A stretch of DNA of 64,000 bases, from positions 124,001 through 188,000 of the forward strand of contig QOQV01000005.1 in assembly GCA_003327435.1 (NCBI GenBank). Reading direction: 5' to 3'. Positions 4,750 through 39,985 of the stretch are shown here, in pieces. Each line of letters opens with the position of its first letter. Within the stretch, counting starts at the first letter, position 1. Under the pieces are notes generated by a model. It did not search any database. It saw only the letters and a program-made list of their open reading frames with translations, and was not told the origin of the DNA. Origin of the DNA: Ignavibacteriota bacterium. Lineage in GTDB: Bacteria > Bacteroidota > Ignavibacteria > UBA10030 > BY39. The translations under genes were made by a program, and so were the position numbers.

Positions 4750-7700
4750 TTATTTCAACACAACCAACTTTTTAACATCCGTAAACTTTCTATTTGGCAC
4801 TGCTACGCTCGTTGCATCCATCCTGTAAAAATAAACTCCGCTTGATACAAACTTTCCTGAATTGTCGGTTGAGTTCCATTCTACCGATTTGAAGCCAGTT
4901 TCCTGTACTTCATCTACAAGGGTCTTAATTTCCTGACCGAGTACATTGTATATCTTTAAAGATACTTTACTTTCCACAGGAAGTTGATATTTTATCGTAG
5001 TAATAGGATTAAACGGATTTGGATAGTTTTGTTCAAGATTATAGGATGATGGTAATAGGTATTTTTCAGGCTCGATGTTAACTGTTCTTTGTACATATTT
5101 TATTGTTGTATAAATTGACGAATTACGGTAACTGCTAACACCCGTCACATAAACATTTCCTGAACCATCTACTGAGATTGCTGTTGCTCTATCATTACCA
5201 TTCGTCGGTCCATTGTACCTTGAAACCCACTGCTGTACGCCTGAACTACTATACTTGATTGTGGCATAATCATCGTTTGTACCTGAACCATAACTATAAC
5301 CCGTCACATAAACATTTCCTGAGCCATCTACTGAGATTGCTGTTGCTCCATCATAATAATTCCCCGGTCCATTGTACCTTGCAACCCACTGCTCTTCACC
5401 TGAACTATTATACTTGATTGTGGCATAATCCCCGTTTGTACCTGAACCATAACTAACACCCGTCACATAAACATTTCCTGAACCATCTATTGCGAGTGAT
5501 GTTGCCTCATCATAATAATTCCCCGGTCCATTATATCTTGCAACCCACTGCTGTACACCTGAACTATTATACTTGATTGTGGCATAATCGTATCCTGTAC
5601 CTGAACCATAACTAACACCCGTCACATAAACATTTCCTGAACCATCTACTGAGATTGCTTTTGAATAATCATTATAATTAGCCGGTCCATTGTATCTTGC
5701 AACCCATTGCTGTACGCCTGAACTATTATACTTGATTGTGGCATAATCATAATCATAATTGGAAGGATAAGTGATTGTACTTACACTCATACCAGTCACA
5801 TAAACATTTCCTGAACCATCTACTGCGATTGCTTTTGAATAATCATCATAATTCACAGGTCCATTATACCTTGCAACCCACTGCTGTACGCCTGAACTAT
5901 TATACTTGATTGTGGCGTAATCATACCTTGTACCTGAACCTGCACTCTTACCTGTTACATAAACATTTCCCGAACCATCTACTGAGATTGCTATTGCCCC
6001 ATCCTCATCGTTCCCCGGTCCATTGTACCTTGCAACCCACTGCTGTACGCCTGAACTATTATATTTGATTGTGGCATAATCATACCCTGTACCTGAACCA
6101 ACACTCGAACCCGTTACATAGACATTTCCTGAACCATCTACCGCCATTGCTGTTGCTCTATCATTACCATTCCCCGGTCCATTGTACCTCGTAACCCACT
6201 GCTGTACGCCTGAACTATTATACTTGATTGTGGCATAATCATCGTATGTACCTGAACCATAACTATAACCCGTCACATAAACATTTCCTGAACCGTCTAC
6301 TAAGACTGCTTTTGTCTCATCGGAAGATATCCCCGGTCCATTGTACCTTGCAACCCACTGCCGTAAGCCTAAACTATTATACTTGATTGTGGCATAATCC
6401 TCGTTTGTACCTGAACCAACACTCGAACCCGTCACATAAACATTTCCTGAACCATCTACTGAGATTGCTGTTGCTCTATCATCACCATTCCCCGGTCCAT
6501 TGTACCTTGCAACCCACTGCCCTACACCTAAACTATTATACTTGATTGTGGCATAATCCTCGTTTGTACCTGAACCAACACTCGAACCCGTCACATAAAC
6601 ATTTCCTGAACCATCTACTGAGATTGCTGTTGCTCTATCATTACCATTCCCCGGTCCATTGTACATTGCAACCCACTGCTGTACACCTGAACTATTATAT
6701 TTGATTGTGGCATAATCATACCCTGTGCCTGAACCTACAATCCAACCTGTCACATATACATTTCCTGAACCATCCACTGAAATTGCTGTTGCTCTATCAT
6801 CACCATTCCCCGGTCCATTATACCTTGCAACCCACTGCTGTACGCCTGAACTATTATACTTGATTGTGGCATAATCCTCGTTTGTACCTGAACCATAACT
6901 AACACCCGTCACATAAACATTTCCTGAACCATCCACTGAAATTGCTCTTGTATGATCAGTATAATTTGCTGGTCCATTGTATCTTGCAACCCATTGCTGT
7001 ACGCCTGAACTATTATACTTGATTGTGGCATAATCCTCGTATGTACCTGAACCATAACTAACACCCGTCACATAAACATTTCCTGAACCATCTACCGCGA
7101 TTGCTGTCGCATAATCATTATTCGAATATCCATCGTATTTTGCAACCCACTGCTGTACACCTGAACTATTATACTTGATTGTGACATAATCAGAGTGTGT
7201 GCCTGAAACATAACTCTTACCCGTTACATAGACATTCCCTGAACCATCTACTGCGATTGCTTTTGTAGAATCAGAATACGCTCCATTGTATCTTGCAACC
7301 CACTGCTGTACACCTGAACTATTATACTTGATTGTGACATAATCAGAGTATGTACCTGAACCATCACTCGAACCTGTTACATAAACATTCCCTGAACCAT
7401 CTACTGCGATTGCTGTTGCATAATCATCACCATTCCCCGGCCCATTGTATCTTGCAACCCATTGCTGTACACCTAAATTATTATATTTTATAGTTAAAAA
7501 ATCATAACCTACAAGTAAAGAATCGCTATACCCAGTTACATAAATATTACCACTTGCATCAACTGCAATATCGGTCGCATAATCAATAGATGGTACCAAC
7601 CCAGATGCATAATGAGCAACCCATACAGTTGCAAAAGTATCAGAAGTTTGTGAAGAGAGCAAGTCCTCACCAGCATCAAAAAAATCTTGTTTCTTCACAG

Positions 7701-8052
7701 TGCGAGAATTACTCTCTGGAAAATCAAATTTATATCTCAGCTGAGGTGGGAGAAAATCTTCACCTAAATCTGTATCTCTGCTATGTTTTTCCCAAGGTCG
7801 TTCTGGATAGTGTGAATGTTTTTCTTCTGTACCATTCAATTTCTCAGTAGCTTTATATCTTCTAGAATACTTCTCCCGTAAGTGAGTCGGTAGAAAATGT
7901 CCATCAATATAATCTCTTATAATATTTTTATCCAGAATTTTGATTTGAGAAGATTCTCTTTTTTCAATAATACCCTGTGAAAATAAAACTTGAAAACTCA
8001 AAACAAAAATTATACCTCCCACCAATAATTGGATAAATAAGCGCCATTTCAC
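4750..8052 (-). CDS. SBBP beta-propeller repeat protein with T9SS sorting domain
   Basis: 1100 aa from a GTG at 8050-8052, chosen because AGGAG (8061-8065) sits 8 nt upstream and the product then begins with a proper signal peptide (MKWRLFIQLLVGG..., cleavage after the hydrophobic run near FSQ). A TTG at 8085 is also open but would put 11 charged residues before it. After a ~130-residue polar N-terminal region come 16 units of about 53 aa, each with the SBBP signature VDGSGNVYVTG and a DYATIKYNSSGVQQWVARYNG link. The last ~90 residues are a T9SS type-A sorting domain (LEQNYPNPFNPITT, VLGQEI, SGVYFYRM). Expected to be a secreted or surface-attached propeller-type protein; partner unknown. The repeats are nearly identical in DNA, implying recent expansion or gene conversion. 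Confidence 0.9.
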   Translation of the reverse strand: MKWRLFIQLLVGGIIFVLSFQVLFSQGIIEKRESSQIKILDKNIIRDYIDGHFLPTHLREKYSRRYKATEKLNGTEEKHSHYPERPWEKHSRDTDLGEDFLPPQLRYKFDFPESNSRTVKKQDFFDAGEDLLSSQTSDTFATVWVAHYASGLVPSIDYATDIAVDASGNIYVTGYSDSLLVGYDFLTIKYNNLGVQQWVARYNGPGNGDDYATAIAVDGSGNVYVTGSSDGSGTYSDYVTIKYNSSGVQQWVARYNGAYSDSTKAIAVDGSGNVYVTGKSYVSGTHSDYVTIKYNSSGVQQWVAKYDGYSNNDYATAIAVDGSGNVYVTGVSYGSGTYEDYATIKYNSSGVQQWVARYNGPANYTDHTRAISVDGSGNVYVTGVSYGSGTNEDYATIKYNSSGVQQWVARYNGPGNGDDRATAISVDGSGNVYVTGWIVGSGTGYDYATIKYNSSGVQQWVAMYNGPGNGNDRATAISVDGSGNVYVTGSSVGSGTNEDYATIKYNSLGVGQWVARYNGPGNGDDRATAISVDGSGNVYVTGSSVGSGTNEDYATIKYNSLGLRQWVARYNGPGISSDETKAVLVDGSGNVYVTGYSYGSGTYDDYATIKYNSSGVQQWVTRYNGPGNGNDRATAMAVDGSGNVYVTGSSVGSGTGYDYATIKYNSSGVQQWVARYNGPGNDEDGAIAISVDGSGNVYVTGKSAGSGTRYDYATIKYNSSGVQQWVARYNGPVNYDDYSKAIAVDGSGNVYVTGMSVSTITYPSNYDYDYATIKYNSSGVQQWVARYNGPANYNDYSKAISVDGSGNVYVTGVSYGSGTGYDYATIKYNSSGVQQWVARYNGPGNYYDEATSLAIDGSGNVYVTGVSYGSGTNGDYATIKYNSSGEEQWVARYNGPGNYYDGATAISVDGSGNVYVTGYSYGSGTNDDYATIKYSSSGVQQWVSRYNGPTNGNDRATAISVDGSGNVYVTGVSSYRNSSIYTTIKYVQRTVNIEPEKYLLPSSYNLEQNYPNPFNPITTIKYQLPVESKVSLKIYNVLGQEIKTLVDEVQETGFKSVEWNSTDNSGKFVSSGVYFYRMDATSVAVPNRKFTDVKKLVVLK
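5083..7623 (-). repeat. 16 tandem ~159-bp coding repeats (SBBP units)
   Basis: Inside the SBBP gene, units of about 53 codons repeat from W155 to about residue 1001 of the TTG-based reading. Long blocks such as CACATAAACATTTCCTGA and ACTTGATTGTGGCATAATC recur almost unchanged on the plus strand in nearly every unit. Variation is concentrated in the short loops after YNGP and after YVTG. The twelfth unit has a 5-residue loop insertion (TITYPSNYDYD). The first and last units are the most diverged, the usual pattern for arrays homogenised by unequal crossing-over. Confidence 0.92.
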
Positions 8053-8060
8053 TTTTCCTT

Positions 8061-8065
8061 CTCCT
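8061..8065 (-). promoter_or_regulatory. Ribosome binding site deciding a GTG start
   Basis: Minus-strand AGGAG, 8 nt before the GTG at 8050-8052 of the SBBP gene. It lies inside the longer TTG-initiated reading, which argues for the GTG. Confidence 0.6.
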
Positions 8066-8111
8066 ATTTTTTTAAATAAATACAATATTTCTCAATATTA
8101 GTATTTGTTCG

Positions 8112-38046: not shown

Positions 38047-38343
38047 ATGGCAGATATTTCATTAGATGCATTAGGAATGGTTGAAACCAAAGGATTAGTT
38101 GGCTCAATTGAGGCAGCTGATGCAATGGTAAAGGCGGCAAAAGTAACACTAATTGGTAAAGAAGTTATTGGTGGCGGTTATGTAACTGTGATGGTTAGAG
38201 GAGATGTTGGAGCAGTAAAAGCAGCAACCGATGCCGGCGCAGCAGCAGCTCAAAGAGTTGGCGAATTAGTATCCGTACATGTAATTCCAAGACCACATGT
38301 AGACGTCGAATTAATATTACCAAAGCGTCCTGAAGGTAAATAA
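38047..38343 (+). CDS. BMC-domain shell protein, PduA/EutM-like hexamer
   Basis: 98 aa, a single BMC-H domain very close in length and sequence to PduA-type shell proteins: [46 protein letters not shown]-like [19 protein letters not shown]. These form hexagonal tiles of microcompartment shells. The pore loop is V-I-G-G-G (residues 40-44) where PduA has K-I-G-S-G, so a small non-polar pore lining is expected. It starts a bicistronic unit with the second BMC gene 19 nt downstream; no microcompartment enzymes or pentamer (BMC-P) gene lie near. Confidence 0.96.
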
Positions 38344-38362: not shown

Positions 38363-38998
38363 ATGAAAATGTTAGATTATGCTCTCGGTCTAATTGAGAC
38401 ACGAGGTTTGATTGGAGCAATTGAAGCTGCAGATGCTGCAACCAAAGCTGCAGAAGTAAAACTTGTAGGTAAAGAAAAAATCCGTGGTGGTTTTGTAACA
38501 ATTAAAGTTGTGGGTGATGTAGCGGCAGTAAAAGCAGCTGTGGATGCTGGCGCTGCAGCTGCCGCACGCGTAGGAGAACTAATATCAACCCATGTTATCC
38601 CCCGACCGATTGGTGAACTTGAGGATTTGATATACACAAAACAAGAAATGCCACCAATACCACCTTTCTCACAGGGTGAATCCGTGGTGCAAACATCCAA
38701 ACCTGCAGAAGAAGTAAAACCTGTAAGAAAAAGAGGGCGAAAACCAAAATCAATTACAACAGAGGTTGCCCCTCAGGTTGAAATAACACAACAAGCTCCT
38801 GCTGAAATTTCTTTTGAAGATCTCGAAAAAATAACAGATGAAAATGAATATCTAAAAGCACTTGAATCAATGAGTGTTCATCAACTGCGTAGATATGCCA
38901 GAAAAGTTGAAGGACTTAGCATTTTTGGTAGGCAAATTTCAATTGCAAACAAAGAAAAACTTATTTCCGAATTGATGAATGCGAAATTTCCCAAGTGA
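38363..38998 (+). CDS. BMC-domain shell protein with C-terminal AT-hook-like and SAP/Rho_N-like extension
   Basis: 211 aa. Residues 1-92 are a BMC-H domain ([35 protein letters not shown]) with pore loop K39-I-R-G-G43, an Arg where PduA has Gly. Residues 93-120 are a Pro/Glu-rich linker, 122-129 is RKRGRKPK, resembling an AT-hook, and 150-211 is a helical domain whose [18 protein letters not shown]...KEKLISEL portion looks like SAP/HeH or Rho N-terminal folds that bind nucleic acid. Known parallels are shell proteins with extra domains, such as EutK, whose tail resembles a nucleic-acid-binding helix-turn-helix. DNA or RNA binding is inferred, not shown. Confidence 0.9.
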
Positions 38999-39061: not shown

Positions 39062-39985
39062 ATGGAAAACAAAAATTATCAAATTATAATACTCTCAATC
39101 TTTTTTGCTATACTTCTTTGGTTTTTAATTAATATGAATTATGAATATGTTACAGCTGAAGAAGTCAAGATAAATTTGATATCCAATCAGAAAATAGCAC
39201 TGAAACAGCCAATACCGAATTCCTTCACAGCAAAAATTAAGGGACGTGGATGGGACCTAATTTCATTTCAGCTTACAAAAAATCCAGAATTTAATTTGGA
39301 TCTATCAAATGCAAAATCTGGAACCTGGAATCTGATAAAGAAAGATATTCTTGAAGGAATTTCTCTACCACAAAGTCTAACCGCTTTAGATGCCTCAATA
39401 GATTTTTTAAATCTTTATACTGACATATATGATTCAACAAAGTTACCTGTTATGTTAGATGCCGAGATTAGATTTAAAGAAGGATACGCTTCAATTGGTG
39501 AGTATCGAATAACACCCGAAAGTATATGGGTCAAAGGGGCAAAAAGTATAATTGATACATTAAAATTTTGGAAAACAAAAAGGGTTCAGATTAAAGATGT
39601 ATCCGAACAGGTGAAAGTCAAAATTCCACTGGCTGATATGCCTGAATATGTTCTTGAATCAGATTTCAAAGAAGTAGAGTTAATATTAAATGTAGAACCA
39701 TTTGCAGATAAAACTTTTTCCGGAATCAACATCACAATCAATTCACAACCAGCGAACAAAGAAGTTATTCTTATTCCTCCAAAAATTGATATAATAGTAC
39801 GAGGAAGCATCAGTAAACTGACAGAAATCAGTTCAGATAGAATACAGGTTTATATCGATTATATGGAATTATTAAACGACACAACAGGATACATTCAACC
39901 AAGATTTTCGATTCCCGATGGATTAAAAATTCTTAAGAGCAATCCAGATAAATTTCAATATATCATAAGAAAAAGATTAATGTAA
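39062..39985 (+). CDS. YbbR-like domain protein
   Basis: 307 aa. Short cytoplasmic N-terminus, one membrane helix (about 8-24, IIILSIFFAILLWFLIN), then YbbR-type extracytoplasmic domains (about 30-300; TFSGINITI-type strands, VRGSISKLTEISSDRIQVYID). YbbR proteins regulate the diadenylate cyclase (DisA/CdaA) in Firmicutes; no cyclase or glmM gene lies beside this one. The BMC terminator ends just 13 nt upstream, so expression depends on read-through or on a promoter hidden in the end of the BMC gene. Confidence 0.83.
   Translation: MENKNYQIIILSIFFAILLWFLINMNYEYVTAEEVKINLISNQKIALKQPIPNSFTAKIKGRGWDLISFQLTKNPEFNLDLSNAKSGTWNLIKKDILEGISLPQSLTALDASIDFLNLYTDIYDSTKLPVMLDAEIRFKEGYASIGEYRITPESIWVKGAKSIIDTLKFWKTKRVQIKDVSEQVKVKIPLADMPEYVLESDFKEVELILNVEPFADKTFSGINITINSQPANKEVILIPPKIDIIVRGSISKLTEISSDRIQVYIDYMELLNDTTGYIQPRFSIPDGLKILKSNPDKFQYIIRKRLM

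Follow-up and report, generated by a model that had tools for sequence, protein, structure and literature searches.

A microcompartment shell protein with a conserved, putatively Rho_N-like tail in an Ignavibacteriota bacterium

How cells position and distribute most of their bacterial microcompartments is an open question, and FRAG compartments have no known function. The locus studied here raises this question through one of its proteins, H2, in which a BMC-H shell domain is followed by a long linker and a helical C-terminal segment. What would a shell protein do with such a tail? An earlier note on this DNA, made from the sequence alone, had described the tail as SAP- or Rho_N-like and had suggested that the shell might be tethered to the nucleoid or might package nucleic acid. 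We analysed the locus in a stretch of 64,000 nucleotides, hereafter the window, together with the rest of the genome and with related genomes of the class and phylum.

The tailed shell protein and its locus

The features of the locus are as follows.

38047..38343, plus strand: H1, a basal shell protein of the BMC-H type with 98 aa, EutM-like (NCBIfam EutM 135.4 bits, cut-off 133)
38363..38998, plus strand: H2, tailed BMC-H protein, 211 aa (open reading frame, PF00936 match, orthologue search)
38381..38608, plus strand: BMC domain of H2, residues 7-82 (PF00936 2.7e-27; predicted structure)
38615..38812, plus strand: disordered linker of H2, residues 85-150 (mean pLDDT mostly 53-64)
38726..38749, plus strand: AT-hook-like patch RKRGRKPK, residues 122-129 (shared by a minority of the orthologues)
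38813..38986, plus strand: C-terminal Rho_N-like helical domain, residues 151-208 (alignment, profiles, AlphaFold, Foldseek)
39062..39985, plus strand: YbbR-like membrane protein gene (PF07949 4.2e-7), a conserved downstream neighbour

The open reading frame, the BMC domain, the patch and the helical C-terminal segment all lie where the earlier note had placed them. Most relatives of H2 begin with MLDYALG, and the true start of the gene may therefore be at residue 3 (38369). H2 matches PF00936 once, at 95 bits compared with a curated cut-off of 24.5, and so classifies as a BMC-H protein. Across 59 orthologues K28, H77 and I79 of this domain are invariant; K28 is the edge lysine, and R81-P82 is nearly invariant among H2 orthologues.

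For the tail, AlphaFold predicts an all-helical structure with a pLDDT of 96-98 over residues 151-208, with helices at 151-156, 160-169, 172-181, 190-194 and 197-208 and no strands, and modelling the tail alone gives a pLDDT of 89.8. These models suggest that H2 ends in a folded domain that spans about 55 residues, comprises four helices or more and is carried on a flexible stalk. Such a domain is a misfit for an encapsulation peptide, a short amphipathic helix on a disordered linker, which was the case that the earlier note had set against its own reading.

H1 lies directly 5′ of H2, and the pairing recurs across the class and in other classes. The YbbR-like gene, the only such match in the genome, follows the H1-H2 pair at most loci of the class and at many loci of other classes, and the linkage of H2 to YbbR persists across classes and in genomes that lack pentamer genes. 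A functional link between the YbbR-like gene and the tailed gene is possible. A gene that reads by eye as pdxJ is also found downstream of H2, and none of the genes next to the pair encodes a cargo enzyme.

The 2.63 Mb genome encodes four BMC domains, those of H1 and H2 and two in one BMC-T gene. Its shell genes are found at four places: the BMC-H pair on C17, the BMC-T gene on C19, two BMC-P genes on C22 and one BMC-P gene on C7. FRAG microcompartments, as described in the available part of Sutter et al. 2021 (PMC8217296), have scattered shell genes and three BMC-P, occur in Ignavibacteriae and related phyla and are of unknown function. Because the shell genes of the window genome are likewise scattered over four places with three BMC-P, its compartment fits the FRAG type. 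That part of the paper notes C-terminal extensions of BMC-H proteins in general terms, but mentions neither a Rho_N-like tail nor pentamer-less descendants. A search of the genome for a phosphotransacylase of the PduL type gave no match, and three of its aldehyde dehydrogenases, those that were readable, carry no clear encapsulation tail by eye. A gene that appears PduS-like by eye (L008, 8761-10659 on C19 of the same genome) directly precedes the BMC-T gene.

Among 294 genomes of the class, sampled as single representatives, 125 have a match to H2 and 118 have the tail, with both present in 117 of the 125. The phylum sample, other classes included, contains the tail in 76 of 396 genomes. All 20 phylum loci that were inspected combine a tailed BMC-H gene with a basal BMC-H gene nearby, and the typical tail carrier is the second of two adjacent BMC-H genes. 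The tail is missing from 8 of the 125 genomes; in the three of these that were inspected (G096, G170 and G252) several shell genes share one contig, which points to a different compartment type.

Seven residues are invariant in 69 aligned orthologous tails (V172, L175, R176, R180, G189, R190 and S193; P0001 numbering), three of them arginines, and residue 197 is basic in nearly all. Together with the pLDDT of 96-98, these seven positions put the tail far above chance. The 42-residue tail core has a mean net charge of +2.4, with some tails near zero or negative.

Relation of the tail to Rho_N

Of the families named in the earlier note, it was Rho_N that gained support, SAP being much weaker. 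When the 69 tails were scanned singly against Pfam, Rho_N (PF07498) was the commonest match (29 tails, best 9.8e-6) and a SAM-like model was matched by 12 (best 7.5e-5), whereas SAP (PF02037) was matched by two, with a best value of 0.048 that falls short of the profile cut-off. Ten shuffled tails gave no Rho_N, SAM-like or SAP match. Furthermore, a reverse scan of 21 whole genomes with the Rho_N model recovered Rho and only two other proteins, both of them BMC-H tails (in G013 and G033), and the G033 tail reaches the family cut-off (25 versus 24.9 bits).

The window's own tail, scanned alone, matches neither Rho_N nor any other nucleic-acid-binding family in Pfam or NCBIfam; its Rho_N assignment comes from its relatives. 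Scanning the tails against NCBIfam gave only scattered weak matches, and a profile search of PDB sequences with the tail gave nothing credible. Structure comparison adds weak support: against 350,542 PDB chains the highest-probability Foldseek match is a Rho chain (9ff7_A, rmsd 1.8 Å over 44 columns, E 5.6), and the 31 PDB matches listed include two further Rho chains, none of the matches being significant by E-value. When the tail was compared by hhalign with a narrow alignment built from local Rho N domains, the match did not reach significance (E 0.045), so the Rho_N claim depends on the broader model of Pfam.

The tail resembles the Rho_N domains of Rho and of the plant protein RHON1 in profile matches, in helical layout and in its best, non-significant structural match, but the local Rho N domains lack the three arginines that are invariant in the tails, and the H2 domain stands at the end of a shell protein. 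Its closest relatives outside BMC proteins, and its best non-BMC profile match (hhalign 95.9%, E 5e-9), are small Rho_N/SAP-like proteins of about 110 aa (L164, L165 and L166, the last at C6:41296 of the window genome). Unlike H2, these stand alone and lack a BMC domain; their N terminus is Rho_N/SAP-like and their C terminus is basic and helical. On these sequence relationships the tail is best called Rho_N-like, as distinct from a proven member of Rho_N. In the literature searched we found no prior description of a microcompartment with SAP or Rho_N; earlier naming elsewhere is possible.

Tails in genomes without pentamer genes

No credible BMC-P match is present in G165 (one contig, 3.6 Mb), G222 or G130. 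Each of these genomes keeps one tailed protein with a BMC domain that is significant but decayed (3.6e-12, 2.4e-14 and 1.8e-10, respectively). The YbbR gene follows the tailed gene in all three, and a decayed neighbour is also kept in G165. Measured against shell-bearing orthologues, the BMC domains of these proteins are 26-37% identical and the tails 49-51% on average; among shell-bearing genomes the values are 72% for the BMC domain and 52% for the tail. At least three pentamer-less genomes therefore keep a well-kept tail on a decayed BMC domain at the same locus, which is the new observation here. A tree built to count how often the shell was lost independently gave no count, owing to its long branches.

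Since the well-kept tail outlasts a decayed BMC domain where pentamers are absent, the constraint on the tail is independent of an intact shell. The same persistence suggests that H2 probably also serves, or has come to serve, in a role independent of the shell that uses the same molecular activity. For the same reason we set aside the packaging of nucleic acid in the lumen, a suggestion of the earlier note that finds no support. In genomes that keep the head without pentamers, one can observe what is rarely seen, a component of an organelle that is apparently being reused.

A similar decayed pair stands at the YbbR position in G119, which has a separate, tail-less cluster of shell genes elsewhere. 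Five genomes of family f15 keep the tail, and in three of these it was seen adjoining YbbR; the N-terminal part of the f15 proteins, considered as a decayed BMC domain, scored no better than shuffled controls and was not counted. One further BMC-H match, with an in-frame TAA (G226:C3:1281769-1282068), is possibly a decayed extra shell gene.

A putative nucleic-acid tether and its alternatives

We propose, with about an even chance of being right, that H2 is a specialised facet protein of a FRAG compartment that carries a multivalent nucleic-acid tether. The BMC domain of H2 would take its place in the shell next to the basal subunit H1, and the long disordered linker would hold the Rho_N-like domain out, most likely on the cytosolic face. 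The concave side of BMC-H proteins faces outward in the solved Haliangium shell. Because this concave face also carries the BMC-H termini (PMC5534457), the tail would be expected on the cytosolic side. Many copies of H2 per particle could then bind DNA or RNA weakly and jointly, and the compartment would thereby be tethered and spread over the nucleoid or over transcripts, as has been proposed for EutK. As the Rho_N-like tail is kept over much of the phylum and persists in a few species that seem to have lost the organelle, it probably either anchors the organelle to DNA or RNA or serves a second function.

We favour this tether because of the model proposed for EutK and because the plant protein RHON1, which has a Rho_N motif at its C terminus, has been described as RNA-binding (PMC11120748). 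Deletion of eutK leaves Eut compartments at the poles, and EutK resembles H2 in joining a single BMC-H domain to a charged C-terminal domain that has been proposed to bind nucleotides (PMC12487888). H2 scores 75.2 bits on the NCBIfam EutK equivalog, well below its cut-off of 218. Furthermore, the tail of EutK is a winged-helix fold, whereas that of H2 is all-helical with no winged helix, and the two differ in compartment and in phylum. PduK is likewise a BMC-H protein with a long C-terminal extension that affects the position of its compartment (discussed in PMC12487888), but this extension, for the most part disordered, has a small Cys-rich motif (PMC12058022) and contains no Rho_N-like domain. 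In one study EutK and PduK behaved as monomers (PMC12058022), so a six-fold display of tails on a putative H2 hexamer is not assured.

Within the tail, the tether draws support from Rho_N as the commonest and reverse-confirmed match, from the invariant R176, R180 and R190 and from the charge of the core. The rank of Rho in the Foldseek comparison, the tails kept in pentamer-less genomes and the AT-hook-like cores in linkers of four families also speak for it. The arginines would fit contacts with phosphates, and would equally fit an acidic protein partner. Several results count against the tether: the window tail lacks a Rho_N match of its own, some tails are neutral or negative, the comparison with local Rho N domains is not significant, the SAM-like model is matched by 12 of the 69 tails, and 60 of the 69 orthologous linkers, which are 36-239 residues long, are net acidic, most of them strongly so.

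These acidic linkers and SAM-like matches are accommodated by the main rival, in which the tail serves for protein docking: it would bring a partner from the cytosol or the membrane to the shell, for example the YbbR-like protein or a cargo enzyme, without nucleic acid. Rho_N/SAP-type folds, as small helical folds of this kind, also mediate protein-protein contacts, and the linkage of H2 to YbbR is kept across classes and without pentamers. However, Rho_N was matched by more tails than any other family and is the one family that was also tested, and confirmed, by a reverse scan, the present analysis identified no partner protein for the tail, and the YbbR-like protein has, by its sequence, a membrane helix near its N terminus and little cytosolic part. 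We regard docking as possible, if somewhat unlikely. The tail could instead face the lumen and organise cargo or assembly in the manner of an encapsulation or scaffold domain. Long C-terminal extensions and stalked helical peptides do serve encapsulation in other compartments (PMC12339742). Against a lumenal position stand the folded nature of the tail, which has invariant polar residues and differs from a short amphipathic helix, its persistence beside a decayed BMC domain in pentamer-less genomes, and the lack of a PduL-type phosphotransacylase in the genome and of a cargo enzyme beside the pair, and we consider this arrangement improbable.

It is more doubtful still, to the point of being very improbable, that H2 binds nucleic acid to regulate its own operon or the turnover of RNA, with the BMC ring as a mere platform for oligomerisation. 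Such a role would agree with a tail that outlives the shell in several genomes, with its relation to Rho_N and with the existence of a protein, L161, that combines the same domain with other modules; but the BMC domain of shell-bearing genomes is still 72% identical and retains edge residues such as K28, as a facet component would. L161 (G227:C97, 1946-3146, minus strand), also among the nearest relatives of the tail outside BMC proteins, has 398 residues; its N terminus gives a weak match to an HU-like family (PF00216, 0.0021, below cut-off), and the protein further contains a hydrophobic stretch, the Rho_N-like domain and a SPOR domain.

Extending the tether to the whole locus, we suggest tentatively, as a rather unlikely reading, that a phylum-deep operon of H1, the Rho_N-like-headed H2 and the YbbR-like gene connects the organelle with transcripts or with the nucleoid, and that in some lineages the shell was lost while the headed protein persisted as a nucleic-acid-binding ring derived from a former wall. 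A conserved Rho_N-like head on a shell protein provides a direct handle on compartment positioning and on FRAG function.

The linker patch may contribute to the proposed tether. The earlier note had pointed to an AT-hook paired with a SAP-like tail; the patch is indeed present in the window protein, but the two do not form a fixed pair, the RGR[PK] core being found in seven of the 69 orthologous linkers (two of them near-identical records), with the window as an additional case. The linkers with this core fall in families f1, f5, f14 and f16. Shuffled linkers contain 0.02 on average and never more than 1, and 50 long reading frames of the window contain no such motif other than RKRGRKPK. The patch is more than chance, yet optional, and in some lineages, that of the window included, it may add grip on AT-rich DNA. 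Elsewhere in the window, 4750-8085 on the minus strand encodes a 1111-aa protein with repeated DGSGNVYVTG units and a C-terminal sorting-type segment.
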